Below are positions 14,976 through 35,454 of a DNA stretch of 64,000 nucleotides, piece after piece. A model generated the notes under the pieces. The model did not search any database, was not told the origin of the DNA, and saw only the letters and a program-made list of their open reading frames with translations. A program made the position numbers and the translations under genes. This DNA is from an uncultured Flavobacteriales bacterium (GTDB lineage: Bacteria; Bacteroidota; Bacteroidia; Flavobacteriales_D; Crocinitomicaceae): the NCBI GenBank assembly GCA_903860985.1, contig CAIOSO010000068.1, positions 1 through 64,000 of the forward strand, written 5' to 3'. Positions within the stretch are counted from its first letter, which is position 1; every line of letters starts with the position of its first letter.

Positions 14976-15050
14976 GGCCCATTCGTCTAGTGGTTAGGAC
15001 GCCAGGTTTTCATCCTGGTAACAGGAGTTCGATTCTCCTATGGGCTACCA
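14976..15050 (+). tRNA. tRNA-Glu (anticodon TTC), copy 1
   Basis: A complete cloverleaf. The seven-pair acceptor stem is GGCCCAT with ATGGGCT (a G-U wobble at the first pair), and the T-arm contains GTTCGATTC. The anticodon stem CCAGG/CCTGG encloses the loop TTTTCAT, giving anticodon TTC for glutamate. The discriminator A at 15047 is followed by an encoded CCA (15048-15050). Confidence 0.97.
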
Positions 15051-15057
15051 AGTTTTT

Positions 15058-15129
15058 GGCCCATTCGTCTAGTGGTTAGGACGCCAGGTTTTCATCCTGG
15101 TAACAGGAGTTCGATTCTCCTATGGGCTA
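15058..15129 (+). tRNA. tRNA-Glu (anticodon TTC), copy 2
   Basis: Identical to copy 1 over all 72 bases, separated from it by seven bases. Unlike copy 1, the bases after the discriminator are CGA, not CCA, so CCA must be added by the nucleotidyltransferase, whose gene is at 20044-21480. No promoter is visible between the copies, so both should come from one precursor. Confidence 0.97.
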
Positions 15130-15180
15130 CGAAGGATTTTTATTATAGAATTTAGAACGTTTTTAATTAACAATAAAGTT

Positions 15181-26404: not shown

Positions 26405-27173
26405 CGAAGGATTCTATTTTTCCATTTTTCCATGCGCACAGTTCCAGTTGAATTCCATCAAAGCGAGCAAATGTTTGCGCATGTAACCACTCACCTGTAT
26501 TGATGTAAACAGCACCGTCAATGGCTAATTCAAGGGGCAGGTGTCTATGACCGAAAATATAAAAGTCCTGTGGATAGGATTTTTGATGTGACAGCGCAAA
26601 ATGATAAAGCCATTCTTTCTCCTTACCGGAATAGATCATGTCTTTGGCCATTCCACTTTTTCTACTACTTCTAGAAAAATAATTCGCCAAAGAAAGCCCT
26701 AAATTTGGATGAATACGTGCAAAAGCCCATTGACATATGGGATTCCGGAAAACCCGTTTGATGAATTTATATCGGTAGTCACCAGGGCCTAATCCATCTC
26801 CATGAGCAACAAAAAACCGTTTGCCGTTTTTTTCGAAGCAAAATTCATCTGAATGCAATTGGACACCAAGTTCTTCTTGAAAGTAATGAAACATCCACAT
26901 ATCATGGTTTCCTTTGAAGAAGTGAATAGGAATTCCTTGTTCAACAAGGGAAGCAATTTTAGCTTGAAGTCGAACGAAACCCTTTGGAATAACCGTTTTA
27001 TATTCAAACCAAAAATCGAAGATGTCACCAATTAAAAATACTTCATCAGCATCTTTTTGAATGCAGTCTAACCATTCGATGAGGTCTTTTTCCCGCTGAC
27101 GACTTGTTGCTAAATCCGGAGAGCCCAGATGAAAGTCTGAGGCGAAATAAGTGTATTTAGCGTTTTTAGTCAT
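26385..27173 (-). CDS. lpxH: UDP-2,3-diacylglucosamine hydrolase
   Basis: A 262-residue calcineurin-like phosphoesterase that cleaves UDP-2,3-diacylglucosamine to lipid X, the fourth step of lipid A synthesis. Metal ligands are visible in order: D13 and H15 in ASDFHLGS, D50 in IGDIFDFW, N89-H90-D91 in KGNHDMW, then AHGDGLG and the closing IFGHRHLP. It overlaps its upstream neighbour by one base. Together with lpxK at the head of the operon it links this transcript to envelope synthesis. Confidence 0.92.
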   Translation of the reverse strand: MTKNAKYTYFASDFHLGSPDLATSRQREKDLIEWLDCIQKDADEVFLIGDIFDFWFEYKTVIPKGFVRLQAKIASLVEQGIPIHFFKGNHDMWMFHYFQEELGVQLHSDEFCFEKNGKRFFVAHGDGLGPGDYRYKFIKRVFRNPICQWAFARIHPNLGLSLANYFSRSSRKSGMAKDMIYSGKEKEWLYHFALSHQKSYPQDFYIFGHRHLPLELAIDGAVYINTGEWLHAQTFARFDGIQLELCAWKNGKIESFDAKRPN

Positions 27174-28285
27174 TAATGTCCAAATATGCGTTTTAATTCC
27201 TCTTCCAATGCTGGTCCTCGCAGATTTGTTTTAATGATACGGCCTTCTCTGTCAATAAGTACCGTAAATGGAACACTTGAAACTTTATAAATTTGCGCAA
27301 CCTTGCTATTCCAACCTCCTAAATCACTGATATGATTCGGCCAAGATAAATGATCTTGTTCGATGGCATTGATCCATTTTTGCGCATCTGTATCTAGTGA
27401 AACACTCACAATGGTAAATCCATCATTCTTGTATTTTTCATACGTTTGAACAACATTCGGATTTTCCCTACGGCAAGGTCCACACCACGAAGCCCAGAAA
27501 TCTATTAGGACAATCTGTCCGCGTAAATCAGAGAGTTTCATGGATTTCTTTTGGTCTGTTTTTAATTCTGAAAAATCTGGAGCTATTTTACCAGGTGCTA
27601 AAAAATTGGCGTCGTCGATTTTCTTTTTAATTAGATTGAAGTTAGAATAAAAGGTTTGAACCGTAGGGCTTTCTGGAAACACGGAGTACAATTGATTCAA
27701 TACATTTTCGTAGGACTTCATATCTTGTTCAGCGTTCATGTTTGCTAAAGCAAGAATTAATACGGGTGAATTTGCATTTGCGCCAATAAATCCTTGAAGT
27801 TCGCTATTGAATTTTTGAAATTCTTGAGTCATGTAGTCGTTAATGACTTGCTCCCTTGAAGGATCGGTTTTGATTGCCGTTAAAGCGGAATCGCTTTTCG
27901 CATTCCATTTTTCAGAAAGGTGAGAAAAGTCGTTCATGGCTTTGGACTCATCGGATCCAACGAAATTGCAAAAATCTTTCAATTTTGAACCGTCTCCGTA
28001 TACTTTGATATCGCTGTTGTTTTTTAAGATGACGTGAATATTCTCTGAGCCAACTCGTAGGTAATAGTAATCTGGATTGGGTAATTCAAGGGTAAGTTTA
28101 AAATTCCCTTTTTTATCCATAGCAGCAGATCCGTAGTCTTTATAGACATTCCCGTAGTTTTGAGAAATTCGTACCAAATCTACGTTGGCATTAAAAATCA
28201 TGCCCGAAACGGTTACCTTAATGGCATTTTGACCAAATAATCCAGAGGAAAAAAAGGCTAAAAGTATAATTCCTAGGTTTTTCAT
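27173..28285 (-). CDS. TlpA-like thioredoxin-fold protein with DUF4369-type domain (copy 2)
   Basis: A 370-residue periplasmic protein with a signal peptide (residues 1-19, ending LFGQ). Residues 22-110 form a beta-rich DUF4369-like domain, residues 115-225 are helical, and the thioredoxin domain follows from about 235 with the redox motif WCGPC (C268, C271). SSVPFTVLIDREG supplies the cis-proline. Likely a thiol-disulphide oxidoreductase. It shares the whole architecture with the next gene upstream, so the pair is a tandem duplication. Confidence 0.88.
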   Translation of the reverse strand: MKNLGIILLAFFSSGLFGQNAIKVTVSGMIFNANVDLVRISQNYGNVYKDYGSAAMDKKGNFKLTLELPNPDYYYLRVGSENIHVILKNNSDIKVYGDGSKLKDFCNFVGSDESKAMNDFSHLSEKWNAKSDSALTAIKTDPSREQVINDYMTQEFQKFNSELQGFIGANANSPVLILALANMNAEQDMKSYENVLNQLYSVFPESPTVQTFYSNFNLIKKKIDDANFLAPGKIAPDFSELKTDQKKSMKLSDLRGQIVLIDFWASWCGPCRRENPNVVQTYEKYKNDGFTIVSVSLDTDAQKWINAIEQDHLSWPNHISDLGGWNSKVAQIYKVSSVPFTVLIDREGRIIKTNLRGPALEEELKRIFGH

Positions 28286-29478
28286 TTTAAAAGTTCGTTT
28301 AAGGTTTCTTCTAATTTTTCACCGCGAAGGTTTTTTCCAATGATCTTTCCTTCTTTGTTTAATAGAACGGTATATGGAATTCCTTCTATTCCAAAGTTTG
28401 CTGCAACCGAGGATTTCCATCCCTTCAAATCACTCACATGGTTTGTCCATGAAAGTTTATCTTTCACAATCGCCTCTTCCCATTTTACAGCATCTTCATC
28501 CAAGGAAACGGAATAAATAGTAAATCCTTTATCCTTAAATTTCTCATACATTTTCACAACGTTCGGATTCTCTGCCCGACAAGGTCCACACCAAGAAGCC
28601 CAGAAATCAACAAGAACTACTTTTCCTTTGAGGTCGGATAATTTCAAGATTTTACCTGACGAATTCGGTAAGGCAATTTCTGGAGCTGGAATAGTACCAT
28701 TTACAGAAGAAGCGAATTCAAAATAGGCATTTTCAATTTGTGAATATTGATTTTGGAAGGTTTCTGCTGCTGGTTGACCAGGATATTTTTCTTCGAAGGC
28801 TTCGGTTACTTTTTTCAGAGCTTCCAAATTCGTCGCATCCCAATCATCAAAACTAACGCTTGGCAACAAGTCCATGGAGAGTATGATGTTGTAAGCATTG
28901 CTTGGTTCTTTCAACATTTGTGTTCTGGAAAAAGATTCCATTTTACTTTTGGCATGAAGAAAAAGTTTAGAAACTTCTTCCTTACTGCGGTTTTCTTCGT
29001 TTACTTGCAAGCGAGCTTGTGTTTGCTGAAACGCGTCGAATTCACCTAAATAGCGGTTCATGGTTTTGCTCCAACTAGTCCCACCGGCATTCGGTTTGGA
29101 AACGAAGGAACTCACAGATGTATTGATGGTCAGATGATCTCCAGGAATTAAGGTAATTGGAATTAAACTATTTTTCTCATCACTCAACCTGAGGAAATAA
29201 TAACCTAAACCTGGAATGTTACCAGTAATATTAAAACTTCCATCATCGTTAATTTGTCCTTCCGCAACGGGAATGGTTCCCTTATCACTTGGTGCTTCCA
29301 CAAATAGTGTCATTCCTGAAACACCTGAAATGTTTCCAGAAATCTCGAAATTATTTTCGAGTCCACCAGTTGCAGCAATGTCTTGCTGACGTTTGTTGAA
29401 CAAAATAATCCCTCCAACAAGTGAAACAATCAGAGCAACGATGATCGCCGATTTATATTTTTTCATCCAATCTTTCAT
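28282..29478 (-). CDS. TlpA-like thioredoxin-fold protein (copy 1)
   Basis: A 398-residue protein with an uncleaved-looking N-terminal membrane anchor (about 9-28, after KKYK), unlike its downstream paralogue, which has a cleavable signal. A DUF4369-like domain (about 43-130), a helical middle, and a TlpA thioredoxin domain from about 265 with WCGPC (C297, C300) follow. The shared ends, LSDLKGKVVLVDFWASWCGP and RGEKLEETLNELL, show close kinship with copy 2. It overlaps gatB and copy 2 by four bases each. Confidence 0.88.
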   Translation of the reverse strand: MKDWMKKYKSAIIVALIVSLVGGIILFNKRQQDIAATGGLENNFEISGNISGVSGMTLFVEAPSDKGTIPVAEGQINDDGSFNITGNIPGLGYYFLRLSDEKNSLIPITLIPGDHLTINTSVSSFVSKPNAGGTSWSKTMNRYLGEFDAFQQTQARLQVNEENRSKEEVSKLFLHAKSKMESFSRTQMLKEPSNAYNIILSMDLLPSVSFDDWDATNLEALKKVTEAFEEKYPGQPAAETFQNQYSQIENAYFEFASSVNGTIPAPEIALPNSSGKILKLSDLKGKVVLVDFWASWCGPCRAENPNVVKMYEKFKDKGFTIYSVSLDEDAVKWEEAIVKDKLSWTNHVSDLKGWKSSVAANFGIEGIPYTVLLNKEGKIIGKNLRGEKLEETLNELLK

Positions 29479-30930: not shown

Positions 30931-31743
30931 TTATATGCGTGAAATTAGTTCTTTCATGATTTGCGTCATTTTCGGCTCTTGTCTACTTGCCACTTCAATC
31001 ACGTCTTGAACGCTCACTTTTTTGATTTTCCCTGGGACACCTAAATCCGTGATAATGGAAATAGCAAAACATGGAATACTCATATGTCGAGCAACGATCA
31101 CTTCTGGAACGGTTGACATTCCAACAGCATCTGCACCAATAACGCGAACATATTTGTATTCTGAAGGCGTTTCCAACGTTGGACCAGTCAGTCCTGCGTA
31201 ACATCCAACAGATACCTTGATAGACAATTCTTCTGCAATCGTTTTTGCCATTTCAATCATGGATTCATCGTAGGGATCACTCATATCCGGGAAACGTGGA
31301 CCTAATTCATCGATGTTTTTTCCAATCAATGGATTTCCGGGGAATAAATTGATGTGATCATTCATGATCATGATTTCACCTACTGCGAAATCTGGATTCA
31401 CACCTCCGGAAGCATTACTAACGAATAAACGCTCGATGCCCAATAATTTCATGACACGAACCGGAAAGGTAACTTGCTGTAAAGTATAGCCTTCATAGTA
31501 ATGAAAACGTCCTTGCATCGCTACTACATTTTTCCCGCCTAAACGTCCAAAAATGAGTTTACCGGAATGACTTTCAACGGTTGAAACAGGGAAATTTGGA
31601 ATGATTTCGTACGGGATTTCATCGATAATTTCGATTTCCTTCACGAGTCCTCCTAATCCAGTACCTAAAATGATACCAATGGTTGGTTGGACACTTGTTT
31701 TGGCTTGAATAAATGCCGCTGTTTCTTTAATGGTTTCTAACAT
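30931..31743 (-). CDS. Purine-nucleoside phosphorylase
   Basis: A 270-residue trimeric-type (PNP family) enzyme that splits guanosine and inosine to base and ribose 1-phosphate. Seen motifs are GIILGTGLGGL at the phosphate site, MQGRFHYYEGYTLQQVTFP, FVSNASGGVNPDF, the guanine-binding LTGPTLETPSEYK and DAVGMSTVPEVIVARH. Length is usual. It overlaps lpxK by 17 bases, so its translation is probably coupled to it. The gene name (punA or deoD) varies between annotations, so I leave it empty. Confidence 0.94.
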   Translation of the reverse strand: MLETIKETAAFIQAKTSVQPTIGIILGTGLGGLVKEIEIIDEIPYEIIPNFPVSTVESHSGKLIFGRLGGKNVVAMQGRFHYYEGYTLQQVTFPVRVMKLLGIERLFVSNASGGVNPDFAVGEIMIMNDHINLFPGNPLIGKNIDELGPRFPDMSDPYDESMIEMAKTIAEELSIKVSVGCYAGLTGPTLETPSEYKYVRVIGADAVGMSTVPEVIVARHMSIPCFAISIITDLGVPGKIKKVSVQDVIEVASRQEPKMTQIMKELISRI

Positions 31744-32743
31744 AATCTTTTAACATCGAATTAAACGCTTCTTCTTCCTCAAATTTTACGCTGATCGGAA
31801 GAACATACCAAGGATAGGTGCAAAGGTCGCTTTCCGAGAGTAGTTCCTTGATTTTTACCAAGTCCTTTTCGGTAGTCACGATGGCCATTTCCTTGTTTGC
31901 AAAGGTATCAAATTTTCTGTGAATTTCTTGGATGTCCGCCCGTGTAAACGCATGGTGATCTGTAAATTTCATTTCTTCCACCTCATGAGTTTGCTTCAAG
32001 TGATTCTTTAAATGTGTTGTCGATGAAATTCCAGTCACTAAAAAGATTGCATTCATGCTACTTTGTTGTTCTCCAATGGCTTGAAAATCATCGTAAACAA
32101 TCCGAGAGAAGAACACGGGTTTTTGGAAGATTTCATAGCGTTTTCTGTGCGTATCCATTTCCTCTATCGTCAGATTCGGACATTTGGTCAGAACGATTGC
32201 ATCTGCGCGTTTAGCACCCGAAATGGATTCCCTTAGGTTTCCAGAGGGTAGATGAAAATCATCTAAAAATTGGTCGTGATATGGAGTGAGCAACAGTTGG
32301 AACCCAGGAATTACGTAGCGATGTTGAAAGGCGTCATCTAGTATGATAAGCGCCGAAGGATTCAAAGCTTTCATATTCACCACTGCTTCTTTTCTTTTTT
32401 CGCCGACAAATACTTCGGTTTTTGAAGCAAATTTCTGGAAATAAGCTAGCGGTTCGTCTCCAACGGTTTGCGCATTGTCTAAAGAATGAACTTGACGAAA
32501 TCCTTTTGAACTTCTTCCGTATCCGCGACTTAAAAGTTGAATGGAAATATCCGCTTGTAAGAGCTTCGTTAAATAAACAACCATGGGTGTTTTTCCAGTT
32601 CCTCCAACGGATAGATTACCCACGGAAATGGATTTTCCAGGAATAATGGTAGACTTTAGTAAGCCAACATCGAACAGGAGATTCCGTGTATAAGTGATGA
32701 GCCAATATAAAATCGTAATTGGAAGTAGTCCGATTTTTCTCAT
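31727..32743 (-). CDS. lpxK: Tetraacyldisaccharide 4'-kinase
   Basis: A 338-residue inner-membrane-associated kinase that adds the 4' phosphate to the lipid A disaccharide. An N-terminal hydrophobic helix (about 4-20) is followed by the P-loop region VGNLSVGGTGKTP (41-53), then LSRGYGRSSKGF, ILDDAFQHR and the late VTTEKDLVKI. I start at the ATG at 32743; the TTG six bases upstream lies in the promoter box. This is the first gene of a nine-gene, mostly overlapping operon that ends at 24299. Confidence 0.93.
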   Translation of the reverse strand: MRKIGLLPITILYWLITYTRNLLFDVGLLKSTIIPGKSISVGNLSVGGTGKTPMVVYLTKLLQADISIQLLSRGYGRSSKGFRQVHSLDNAQTVGDEPLAYFQKFASKTEVFVGEKRKEAVVNMKALNPSALIILDDAFQHRYVIPGFQLLLTPYHDQFLDDFHLPSGNLRESISGAKRADAIVLTKCPNLTIEEMDTHRKRYEIFQKPVFFSRIVYDDFQAIGEQQSSMNAIFLVTGISSTTHLKNHLKQTHEVEEMKFTDHHAFTRADIQEIHRKFDTFANKEMAIVTTEKDLVKIKELLSESDLCTYPWYVLPISVKFEEEEAFNSMLKDYVRNH

Positions 32744-32746
32744 CCT

Positions 32747-32754
32747 CAAAGATA
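32747..32754 (-). promoter_or_regulatory. -7 box abutting the lpxK start
   Basis: TATCTTTG on the minus strand ends three bases before the lpxK ATG at 32743. It probably drives the nine-gene operon. The -33 region is not conserved. Confidence 0.5.
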
Positions 32755-32758
32755 CGCT

Positions 32759-33433
32759 TTATTGATTGTGATAGTCCGAAAATGCTTGTTCGTCGTCGAA
32801 ATAAAAAATTCGAATTAACGCGGTATCATTCAAAAAGTCAATTTTACCGATTTCCACACGATTGATGGATAAACCAGTTCGTTTCTCCAAATCCGCCTTC
32901 ATCTCGTCGTATTTTTCCGGTGTTATTAAATCGATTCGCTCGTAGTTGATGGTTTTGCGCGTTTCGTGCTTCATCAACCAAAGGTTCTCCAAAATGAAGG
33001 TCAGTAAAACCACCGACACGTTGATGACAGCAACTTCTGAAACACTCAATTCATTGGATGCTAAGGCATTGACTACGCTGATGCCGATTATCATGAACAG
33101 ATAAGTCATTTCTTTGATTTCAATCGCATCCGTTCGATAGCGGATGATTCCAAAAATGGCAAATAAACCGAGTCCCATTCCAGTGTCAATGTCCATTTGC
33201 ATCAATCCAAAACACAAGAAAAAGGTAATGGTTCCAATTAAATAATAGGTAAATAAGTAATCCTTTCTTTGGGTCTTCGGATAATACAAAAAGCGAATTA
33301 ATATGGTTAGAAACAATAAGTTGATTCCTAAACGAACGAGTAACACATAGAAGTCATCACTGAACCATGTTAGTGCAGAACTGCTCAGTGCAGCTTTTTT
33401 CAAGGGGAGAAGGAAGGAATTAAATAGCATCAT
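32759..33433 (-). CDS. DUF4956 membrane protein
   Basis: A 224-residue inner-membrane protein with about four membrane helices (roughly 30-48, 62-80, 83-102 and 107-150) and a C-terminal cytosolic part of about 75 residues. The segment GLFAIFGIIRYRTDAIEIKEMTYL between helices is the DUF4956 signature. The family occurs next to VTC-domain proteins, as here, where its start overlaps the VTC gene by 14 bases. It may be a membrane partner for polyphosphate handling, but no function is proven. Confidence 0.85.
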   Translation of the reverse strand: MMLFNSFLLPLKKAALSSSALTWFSDDFYVLLVRLGINLLFLTILIRFLYYPKTQRKDYLFTYYLIGTITFFLCFGLMQMDIDTGMGLGLFAIFGIIRYRTDAIEIKEMTYLFMIIGISVVNALASNELSVSEVAVINVSVVLLTFILENLWLMKHETRKTINYERIDLITPEKYDEMKADLEKRTGLSINRVEIGKIDFLNDTALIRIFYFDDEQAFSDYHNQ

Positions 33434-34178
33434 GATTTATTTTTTTTAAATAAAGTAATTTTTTTTTGAAACGGTTGAATTTTAATTTTTCCTCGCCATA
33501 GATCTCAACGGAACCTAAGCAGAATTTACTTAATCGATATGGACGGAGTTGACGGTTCTTCATTAATTGGTAAAACGAAGAATTTCGATCTAAATCCTCT
33601 TGTTTTAACTCGGCAATTACCAATTGGTTAAACGTTTTTTTTACCCCATCTTTTTCAAACAGTATGTTGAAGTCAAATGTAATTCGTTCGATAGCTGTTT
33701 TGGACACCAAGGTAATGCGCTGAAACGAATTCCAAATCGTTGGAACTAAGTTTTTATCTGCACTTAGTTCTTTTTGCACAAAAGCTAAATCACTTTCGGG
33801 CAGCACTTCATTGAATTGATCAGTAGCAATCCGTTTTTTGTCAGTTCGTCCTTTAAACTTGTGTTTTACCTCCAAAAAGAACAGATTGGACTCAACATAT
33901 TTTCGAATACGGACCTTAAATCGATTTCCTTTGCCATTGTGGTGATCTTTGAAAAAAGAAAAGCGATCATCATCGAAATACAGACTTTCGTAATGTGGGG
34001 CATTTGTCCCTTCAATGGTTAAAATTCGGTAGTGATTCGCTAATAAAGGAAGGAGCAATGTTAGCTCGCTCATTGGAAATGCAAATTTTGTATCTATGCG
34101 GTTCATCAACTTCACACCGTCCATTTCTTGTAAAGTGATTGGCTCAAAAGCGTTAAGTAATGCGTTAATTTCGTTCAT
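33420..34178 (-). CDS. VTC-domain (polyphosphate polymerase-like) protein
   Basis: A 252-residue protein with the VTC catalytic tunnel domain, which in yeast Vtc4 makes polyphosphate from ATP. Seen are LMNRIDTKFAFP near 24-36, YFDDDRFSFFKDHH, the basic strand FKVRIRKY (about 87-94), and FLEVKHKFKGRTDKKRI (101-117) with the glutamate and basic residues of the tunnel. There is no membrane segment; the DUF4956 partner probably supplies it. Whether it makes polyphosphate is inference from the fold. The nearest upstream gene is divergent purT. Confidence 0.87.
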   Translation of the reverse strand: MNEINALLNAFEPITLQEMDGVKLMNRIDTKFAFPMSELTLLLPLLANHYRILTIEGTNAPHYESLYFDDDRFSFFKDHHNGKGNRFKVRIRKYVESNLFFLEVKHKFKGRTDKKRIATDQFNEVLPESDLAFVQKELSADKNLVPTIWNSFQRITLVSKTAIERITFDFNILFEKDGVKKTFNQLVIAELKQEDLDRNSSFYQLMKNRQLRPYRLSKFCLGSVEIYGEEKLKFNRFKKKLLYLKKINHDAI

Positions 34179-34293: not shown

Positions 34294-35454
34294 ATGAATA
34301 AAAAGATCCTCTTATTAGGTTCAGGTGAACTTGGAAAAGAATTTGTCATCGCCTGTCAGCGTTATGGTCAACACGTGATTGCGGTAGATAGTTATGCTGG
34401 CGCTCCTGCCATGCAAGTAGCAGATGCGTTTGAAGTCATCAACATGTTAGATGGCGATGAATTAGATCGAATCGTCGCAAAGCATCAACCTGATTTAATT
34501 GTGCCTGAAATTGAAGCGATACGAACCGAGCGTTTTTACATCTACGAAAATCAAGGAATACAAGTCATCCCAAGTGCCAAAGCAGCAAATTTCACGATGA
34601 ACCGCAAAGCTATTCGCGATTTAGCAGCAAAGGACCTCGGCGTGAGAACGGCAACCTATCGCTATGCAACGAGTTACGAGGAATTAGTTGCTGGTGTTGA
34701 CGTTTGTGGTATCCCCTGTGTTGTAAAACCTTTAATGTCTAGTTCTGGAAAAGGTCAATCGGTTATTAAGTCAAGCGACGATATTCAAAAAGCATGGGTT
34801 TATGCCATGGAAGGATCTCGCGGTGACTTGAAAGAAGTAATCGTAGAAGGATTCATTGATTTCGATTATGAAATCACGCTGTTAACGGTGACGCAAAAAG
34901 ATGGTCCTACGTTGTTTTGTCCACCAATCGGACACCGTCAAGAACGTGGTGATTACCAAGAAAGTTGGCAACCGATGCCCATGCTAGCCGAACACCTTGC
35001 TGAAGCGCAAGAAATGGCTACGAAAGTAACCGCGGAACTTGGCGGAGCTGGAATTTGGGGTGTGGAATTTTTCATCACCAAAGATGGCGCGTATTTTTCT
35101 GAATTATCACCGCGTCCACACGATACGGGAATGGTGACTCTTGGGGGGACACAAAATCTTTCGGAATTTGAATTGCATGCACGTGCGATTTTAGGATTAC
35201 CTATTCCAAAAATTGATCATATTCAAAATGGAGCGAGTGCGGTTATCTTAGCTTCAGAATCTTCTGATCAAGCCCCACAATTTGTTGGACTAGAAAATGC
35301 GTTGTCCCTTGAAAATACGGAAGTACGCATCTTTGGTAAACCGACAACAAGACCTTATCGACGAATGGCTGTGGCCCTCGCTTTTGGCACAGAATCTGTT
35401 GAAGACTTAGTCGAAAAAGCGAAATTAACCGCTGCTAAAATCCAAGTAAAATGA
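34294..35454 (+). CDS. purT: Formate-dependent GAR transformylase
   Basis: A 386-residue ATP-grasp enzyme that makes formyl-GAR from GAR, formate and ATP in purine synthesis. It opens [17 protein letters not shown], and contains [15 protein letters not shown], the acidic [18 protein letters not shown] and [21 protein letters not shown], which carry the nucleotide and metal ligands. Length is normal. It overlaps the M61 peptidase gene by four bases although their functions look unrelated. Confidence 0.96.

Follow-up and report, generated by a model that had tools for sequence, protein, structure and literature searches.

The described systems closest to the locus reported here are the yeast VTC complex and a set of Gram-positive gene clusters. 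The yeast complex consists of the catalytic Vtc4 with Vtc3 or Vtc2 and Vtc1. According to PMC9911596, synthesis by its cytosolic enzyme is coupled to passage through a basic membrane channel, and Vtc4 is inactivated with R264A/R266A/E426N. In hydrolytic TTM proteins, four glutamates occupy positions at which Vtc4 is described as basic (excerpt of PMC4641920).

In streptococci and clostridia, genes for CotH, a poly-phosphate polymerase, DUF4956 and DUF4832 lie beside the pel genes, and CotH was suggested to regulate Pel there (excerpt of PMC7112168). The VTC genes of Clostridium perfringens NELoc-2 are located beside CotH (excerpts of PMC2879425 and PMC11677781), and a gene table of Bacteroides thetaiotaomicron lists a DUF4956-DUF2490 pair, BT3498-BT3499 (excerpt of PMC10434189). 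The VTC-DUF4956-CotH pairing is thus already in print (PMC7112168), as is VTC-CotH (PMC2879425). These Gram-positive pel-side and NELoc-2 systems resemble the one described below in having CotH, VTC and DUF4956 side by side, but the excerpts mention neither a lipoprotein nor DUF2490 nor a polyphosphate export model.

Public records name the bacterial VTC proteins 'polyphosphate polymerase domain-containing', and no published activity test of a bacterial VTC was found in the open-licence literature. The same literature yielded no report of the five-gene set, of its split in the present genome or of the CotH co-occurrence.

The window, the whole stretch of 64,000 nucleotides analysed, lies on contig C68 of a draft genome of 2.44 Mb in 191 contigs. 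Judged by DUF4956, its nearest named relatives are MAGs of Cryomorphaceae, Crocinitomicaceae and other Flavobacteriales. The locus contains the following features.

31727..32749, minus strand: lpxK, 9 bases after the DUF4956 gene on the same strand
32759..33433, minus strand: DUF4956 gene, 224 aa, ATG start; Pfam DUF4956; proposed inner-membrane outlet
33420..33433, minus strand: overlap of the VTC and DUF4956 genes, 14 bases
33420..34178, minus strand: VTC-domain gene, 252 aa, ATG start; Pfam VTC; proposed polyphosphate polymerase related to Vtc4
34294..35454, plus strand: PurT-like ATP-grasp gene, divergent and upstream of the pair, bounding the unit

A VTC-DUF4956 pair with a 14-base overlap had been claimed from the sequence alone, and both the open reading frame coordinates and the Pfam matches bear it out. 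The VTC protein matches PF09359 with E 2.6e-27 and 96.4 bits against a curated cut-off of 23, and the other protein matches PF16316 (DUF4956) with E 1.5e-56 and 191.2 bits against 30.6. NCBIfam has no family for either protein, and a single-sequence PDB search gave weak unrelated matches only, the best at E 0.12. The lpxK gene is probably co-transcribed with the pair, but we do not count it as a component of the system. The same order of PurT-like gene, VTC, DUF4956 and lpxK occurs in the same-genus genome G041.

A PDB search with a profile of 24 VTC proteins found yeast Vtc4 (3g3q, E 8.3e-21) and other Vtc chains; no CYTH enzyme was among its matches, which included one chance-level chain. 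We then mapped 15 tunnel positions of Vtc4 by counting along the alignment to PDB chain 8i6v_E. The window residues R27, D29, K31, R90, R92, E103, K105, K114, R154, R165, D169, E190, K192, S217 and K218 correspond to Vtc4 R196, T198, K200, R264, R266, E279, K281, K294, R361, R373, D377, E426, K428, S457 and K458, respectively.

The Vtc4 residue is identical at 14 of the 15 positions in all 66 window-type close relatives and at 11 of the 15 in all 24 varied VTC rows. In the varied set, R27 and R165 are each kept in 23/24 and S217 in 22/24, and D29 is E or D. The basic tunnel of Vtc4 and its metal-binding glutamate (K200, R264, R266, K281, R361, E426, K458 and others) are hence retained as the sequence-only reading had stated, in the close relatives and, to the extent given, in the varied set. 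The equivalent of the catalytic K458, K218, is invariant.

The site as read from the sequence is not identical to that of Vtc4, differing at T198, H283 and K455. The T198 equivalent D29 is acidic throughout the 66 window-type rows, with D in 61 and E in 5. In the window type, the H283 equivalent is K or R without exception, and a single P occurs among the varied rows. K455 has no conservation among the bacterial VTC rows. In the mapping that we infer, the equivalents of the hydrolytic acidic patch are R27, D29, K114 and K192, with K114 the presumed counterpart of AtTTM3 E90. Three of these four are basic and D29 is acidic, kept as D/E in 66/66 and 24/24, while Vtc4 itself has T at this second position. 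The CYTH/TTM enzymes (ygiF, AtTTM3 and CyaB) share the tunnel fold with the window VTC but differ from it at three of the four patch positions.

The structure model of the VTC protein (pLDDT 95.7) fits Vtc3 with Z 18.2 (3.5 A over 215 residues), Vtc2 with Z 17.8 (3.3 A over 209 residues) and Vtc4 (3g3r) with Z 17.6 (3.2 A over 213 residues). The non-catalytic Vtc2 and Vtc3 thus fit as well as Vtc4 does. The model also fits ygiF with Z 15.9 (3.0 A over 196 residues) and other hydrolases and cyclases with Z 13-15. The fold by itself leaves the reaction undecided, and the residues lean towards a polymerase. On balance, the window VTC probably makes polyphosphate.

The AlphaFold2 model of the DUF4956 protein has a mean pLDDT of 84.0. 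Five helices are predicted at residues 26-50, 60-79, 85-100, 106-124 and 131-152, of which the third has only 16 residues, and a soluble beta-alpha-beta-beta part lies C-terminal to them. The sequence-only reading, with four membrane helices, came close to this count; it missed the short third helix as well as the soluble end. Residues R98 and R100 are invariant in 28 varied proteins and in 62 window-type proteins.

The earlier expectation of a membrane partner like the yeast VTC subunits does not hold in recognisable form. Pfam gives the partner DUF4956 only, with no match to Vtc1-type or other yeast VTC membrane parts. The VTC protein has no SPX domain: VTC is its only Pfam family above cut-off, and it is preceded by about 26 residues. 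We rejected DUF4956 as a counterpart of the yeast VTC membrane parts, as there is no sequence match and Foldseek returned nothing at E 0.001 or better. No convincing fold was found for the model in the PDB; VIA-align ranked AtALMT1 first with Z 6.7 (5.3 A over 115 residues), a value within the noise that this tool gives for helical models. Overall, the bacterial pair is like the yeast complex in its tunnel fold, its 14/15 tunnel positions and a cytosolic enzyme coupled to a membrane part (excerpt of PMC9911596). It is unlike the yeast complex in lacking SPX and any match to the yeast membrane parts, in having enzyme and membrane part as separate proteins, in the acidic residue at T198, and in its envelope and CotH partners.

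The mixed DUF4956 profiles match MgtC. Against 30 MgtC proteins of the same phylum, the mixed profile scored 96.4% with E 1.2e-9 over 194 columns spanning the helices and the soluble end, and 93.5% with E 2.4e-7 when the window protein was put first, versus 0.7 and 1.3% for the reversed-MgtC controls. MgtC PF02308 is weakly matched by 14 of the 28 varied DUF4956 proteins (best E 4.1e-5), and the DUF4956 loci found by the MgtC model are few and below its curated cut-off. The window-type profile alone scored 0.41%, so the relation has to be carried over to the window protein with caution. The window protein itself has no MgtC match up to E 10, only DUF4956, and no MgtC was found in the 30 relatives. 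We therefore dropped MgtC as a direct assignment, since only the mixed profiles match. A distant relation between the DUF4956 and MgtC families is possible from these profile alignments; the likeness was not met in the open-licence literature, in searches that were aimed at other subjects than MgtC.

The arrangement of the pair was followed in 80 loci from named genomes, the best 80 of 546 by likeness to the window-type DUF4956 and so not a random sample; both L146 and L147, which have identical coordinates throughout and are probably near-duplicates, are counted. After near-identical, short and over-long reading frames were left out, 61 DUF4956 and 65 VTC sequences were kept from them. VTC is directly upstream of DUF4956 in 76 of these best 80 loci; the distance between the two genes ranges from -88 to +47 bases and is most commonly -11. 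Two of the other four end near a contig edge.

Several single loci deserve a remark. In L152, L154 and L165, a DUF4956 gene without VTC has one and the same convergent neighbour, which looks like a response regulator of the LytTR type; L165 begins near a contig edge. The VTC match of L168 (2556-3316) is split over two overlapping reading frames of 95 and 179 aa, and the gene may be broken or mis-assembled. The loci L163, L118 and L169 are titled Euryarchaeota archaeon or Chryseobacterium gleum and resemble Flavobacteriales, so the labels may be wrong.

A neighbourhood map of 40 loci and the window, 30 of the loci with a VTC gene, gave the same picture: DUF4956 follows VTC immediately on the same strand in 27/30. 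The VTC proteins fall into two types, a long type and the window type. An HlyD-like gene adjoins the pair in 15 of the 30 mapped VTC loci, before VTC in 12 and after DUF4956 in 3. It is often the long type that comes with this adaptor, which Pfam calls HlyD_3 for one representative of each position. In genome G062, the gene between DUF4956 and VTC is OEP by Pfam.

DUF4956 occurs without VTC in 16 of 148 genomes, of which 11 were mapped, and an HlyD-like gene comes after DUF4956 in 8 of the 11. DUF4956 may have a VTC-free export role. In seven genomes (L094-L100, e.g. L094:8009-10926), DUF4956 without VTC is followed by an HlyD-like gene and then by a TolC-looking gene, which had no Pfam match in the one case scanned. 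Elsewhere (L091:8207-8767 and L092:8063-8620), such a DUF4956 gene is convergent with a gene of 625-631 aa; the latter belongs to one cluster and reads like a phosphoenolpyruvate-synthase relative.

The window-type pairs have other companions. Several loci have a DUF2490 gene at the pair, named so by Pfam in 3/3 scanned, and DUF2490 is probably an outer-membrane protein. It is beside the pair in 35/80 loci, never more than 512 bases off, and lies downstream in 29 of them and upstream in 6; the other 45 lack it there, and no further DUF2490 matches were found elsewhere in the 80 loci. These loci were scanned for five families only, namely CotH, counted here with a purpose-built profile, a small lipoprotein, VTC, DUF4956 and DUF2490. 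The lipoprotein profile was built on three sequences. The protein is called a small lipoprotein by our reading of its signal and cysteine, and no Pfam family was above cut-off for the lipoproteins of L141, L225, L231 and L222.

CotH is within 4 kb on the same strand in 17/80 loci, leaving 63 without, and the lipoprotein in 16/80. All five genes stand within 4 kb on one strand in 7/80 (L141, L146, L147, L148, L149, L166 and L175). VTC, DUF4956, DUF2490 and CotH are consecutive in the flavobacteria Mariniflexile fucanivorans (L140) and Flavivirga jejuensis (L145). As a rough chance yardstick, five CotH genes per 2.4 Mb genome would fall in about 2.6% of such stretches; among the 55 loci that extend 5 kb or more to either side, 15 are observed to have CotH.

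Eight regions were picked for closer comparison: four with the lipoprotein and VTC on one contig, three with a strong lipoprotein match, and that of G041. CotH, lipoprotein, VTC, DUF4956 and DUF2490 stand in a row in the same-order genomes G168 and G173, and lipoprotein, VTC, DUF4956 and DUF2490 do so in G174. The same-genus G161 (L231) has DUF4956, VTC, DUF2490 and the lipoprotein on one strand with CotH divergent, all five being neighbours. In G149, G160 and G163, CotH and the lipoprotein are on a different contig from VTC.

The window's own genome holds all five genes, which are not adjacent: the pair is on C68 and the other three are together on C112 and on C145. On C112 (L222), CotH (10107-7909), the lipoprotein (7907-7149) and DUF2490 (7149-6457) form a tight run on one strand. 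On C145 (L225), the lipoprotein and DUF2490 are divergent from another CotH, and the G161 arrangement is this one with the VTC-DUF4956 pair attached. The C145 DUF2490 is above the Pfam cut-off and the C112 one is below it (25.8 vs 29.8 bits). The genome has five CotH and three DUF2490 matches, and its best DUF2490, on C52, has no CotH or lipoprotein near. The window's pair looks like the detached core of the five-gene set. The sequence-only reading of a two-gene module is hence too simple, since relatives hold the pair in a set with CotH, the lipoprotein and DUF2490, and the pair very probably forms one system with these three.

A type IX sorting domain is present both on the CotH of C112 (Por_Secre_tail, E 6.4e-10) and on that of C145 (CHU_C, E 7.1e-14), so the two proteins should end up at the cell surface. 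Such domains are on 13 of the 17 CotH proteins scanned, the exceptions being L088, L134, L140 and L223. L223 (1301-7396 on C184, also of the window's genome) has a 473 aa CotH flanked on each side by a large gene that looks related to alpha-amylase. CotH was counted by Pfam or our own profile because the c3 cluster mixes CotH with an alpha-amylase sharing side domains with it.

The families were counted across 148 genomes from the phylum, with Pfam for CotH in whole genomes. VTC was found in 29, DUF4956 in 45, PPK1 in 135, CotH in 60 and MgtC in 61. All 29 VTC genomes have DUF4956, and the co-occurrence of the two families, put forward earlier as a check, is therefore complete on the VTC side. 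CotH is likewise in all 29 VTC genomes versus 31 of the 119 others, and in 42 of the 45 DUF4956 genomes. Fisher tests of VTC and CotH, which ignore kinship, gave p 2.2e-14 by genome, 8.3e-8 by genus and 5.2e-5 by family. Nine families have members both with and without VTC; in these, CotH is in 19/19 VTC genomes and 25/47 others. VTC is associated with neither PPK1 (p 0.51) nor MgtC (p 0.85) by genome.

Among 14 named controls, VTC and DUF4956 are in the same three, Corynebacterium glutamicum, Methanosarcina acetivorans and Bacteroides ihuae. CotH is in the former two and also in Bacillus subtilis; Bacteroides ihuae has VTC and no CotH match. Of the 30 nearest relatives, 25 have VTC and 25 have a lipoprotein match, often a weak one, and these are not the same 25.

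That no Ppk gene is nearby, as noted earlier, is true for the locus but misleading for the genome, which has ppk1 on contig C61. This is its only PPK1 match (E 1.8e-49), and PPK2 has no match in the genome. PPK1 is present in 27 of the 29 VTC genomes. PPK2 was looked for in 12 VTC genomes, and G078 alone among them has neither PPK1 nor PPK2. VTC as a replacement for a missing Ppk was rejected because its presence is independent of PPK1. PPK1 would share the proposed product with the VTC protein but belongs to another family (PF02503 vs PF09359), and its gene is on another contig.

The pair extends beyond the phylum. Searches of a plasmid collection gave 22 matches to the VTC queries, and eight records were opened, one of them unannotated. 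Window-type relatives are on plasmid records of Deinococcus, Aminobacter, Shinella, Nitratireductor, Nonomuraea and Streptomyces, and long-type ones on those of Firmicutes and Nonomuraea. DUF4956 adjoins VTC in 7/7 annotated records opened, and it comes before VTC in the three alphaproteobacterial ones (L182-L183 and L186, from Aminobacter, Shinella and Nitratireductor).

In Deinococcus taeanensis, Pseudobutyrivibrio and Planococcus, CotH adjoins the pair. The CotH-VTC-DUF4956 genes are inside a glycosyltransferase cluster in Pseudobutyrivibrio, and a glycosyltransferase follows downstream in Planococcus. Other records have phosphate-related neighbours. Downstream of the pair, Aminobacter and Shinella have a phytase-like gene, and Nitratireductor has a phosphate transporter with a phytase-like gene behind it. 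In Deinococcus QL22, the genes near the pair include an acid phosphatase and an ABC transporter for phosphonate or phosphate. As examples and not as a count, these four records speak for a phosphate product; no CotH is in their stretch.

By analogy with yeast, we propose that VTC makes the chain and DUF4956 takes it out. The VTC protein, as a Vtc4-like tunnel enzyme in the cytosol, would join phosphates from ATP into polyphosphate, and DUF4956 in the inner membrane would pass the growing chain out of the cytosol. The lipoprotein and DUF2490, probably in the outer membrane, would carry or hold polyphosphate in the envelope, a role that HlyD-like adaptors may fill in another branch. A CotH-type kinase secreted to the cell surface would then work with the product outside. 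Of this model, the gene pair, the conserved tunnel, the synteny of the five genes, the link to CotH across genomes and the type IX domains on 13 of the 17 CotH proteins are observed; we infer the synthesis, the passage through DUF4956, the surface use and the outer-membrane place of DUF2490 and the lipoprotein.

The direction of transport is taken from the envelope partners and the surface kinase, and whether polyphosphate leaves the cytosol appears evenly poised. That an envelope-spanning system has its cytosolic and inner-membrane core in this pair, with the whole chain of steps up to export, is offered tentatively, with the doubt slightly the heavier. The further step is unlikely: exported polyphosphate might be the phosphoryl donor for the surface CotH kinases or be itself attached to proteins. 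ATP should be scarce at the cell surface where the CotH-type kinases live. A polyphosphate donor would explain both the CotH in all 29 VTC genomes and the full set spanning cytosol, inner membrane, envelope and surface. It is our own proposal; searches of the open-licence literature met no paper stating that CotH takes phosphate from exported polyphosphate.

Other readings share parts of this evidence. The VTC protein might be another tunnel enzyme, such as a tripolyphosphatase, an NTPase or a maker of a nucleotide signal, with DUF4956 as a mere anchor and the CotH link reflecting control of surface phosphorylation. The fit to hydrolases and cyclases, with ygiF at Z 15.9 and others at 13-15, the acidic D/E at one patch position in 66/66 and 24/24 and the loss of Vtc4 K455 would suit such an enzyme. 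The basic residues at three of the four patch positions as in Vtc4, the invariant K458 equivalent and a PDB profile search that finds Vtc proteins but no CYTH enzyme all point to the polymerase instead, and we consider another tunnel enzyme unlikely.

Accepting the polymerase, the pair could make polyphosphate for intracellular storage or stress, giving the cell a route additional to ppk1 in which nothing is exported and the neighbours are incidental. The conserved coupling to a membrane protein, the envelope and surface neighbours and the independence of VTC from PPK1 (p 0.51) speak against it, even though the pair is alone with lpxK in the window and the same-genus G041, and a phosphate transporter or phosphatase adjoins it in some records. 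As the proteins encoded around the pair belong to the envelope and the surface, export seems the likelier of the two, and we regard storage as quite improbable. Alternatively, the set might phosphorylate or build a surface glycan or protein coat, VTC giving the glycan an activated phosphate intermediate rather than free polyphosphate. The Gram-positive loci with CotH, the polymerase and DUF4956 beside pel genes (excerpt of PMC7112168), the Pseudobutyrivibrio cluster and the downstream glycosyltransferase of Planococcus are in line with this, but no glycosyltransferase is beside the pair in the window, a weak counterargument as the 80 loci were scanned for the five families only. A glycan role is, in our judgement, more doubtful still.

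If the export model is true, bacteria have a dedicated polyphosphate exporter and the secreted CotH kinases gain a plausible phosphate source. The model also offers a shared and testable role for DUF4956, DUF2490 and the small lipoprotein family.

Two minor observations were made elsewhere in the window. One is a pair of adjacent tRNA-Glu genes at 14976-15130 that share their anticodon. The other, at 27173-29478, consists of two neighbouring genes that overlap and encode 370 and 398 aa; they have alike thioredoxin-like ends and belong to one cluster, which looks like a tandem duplicate.
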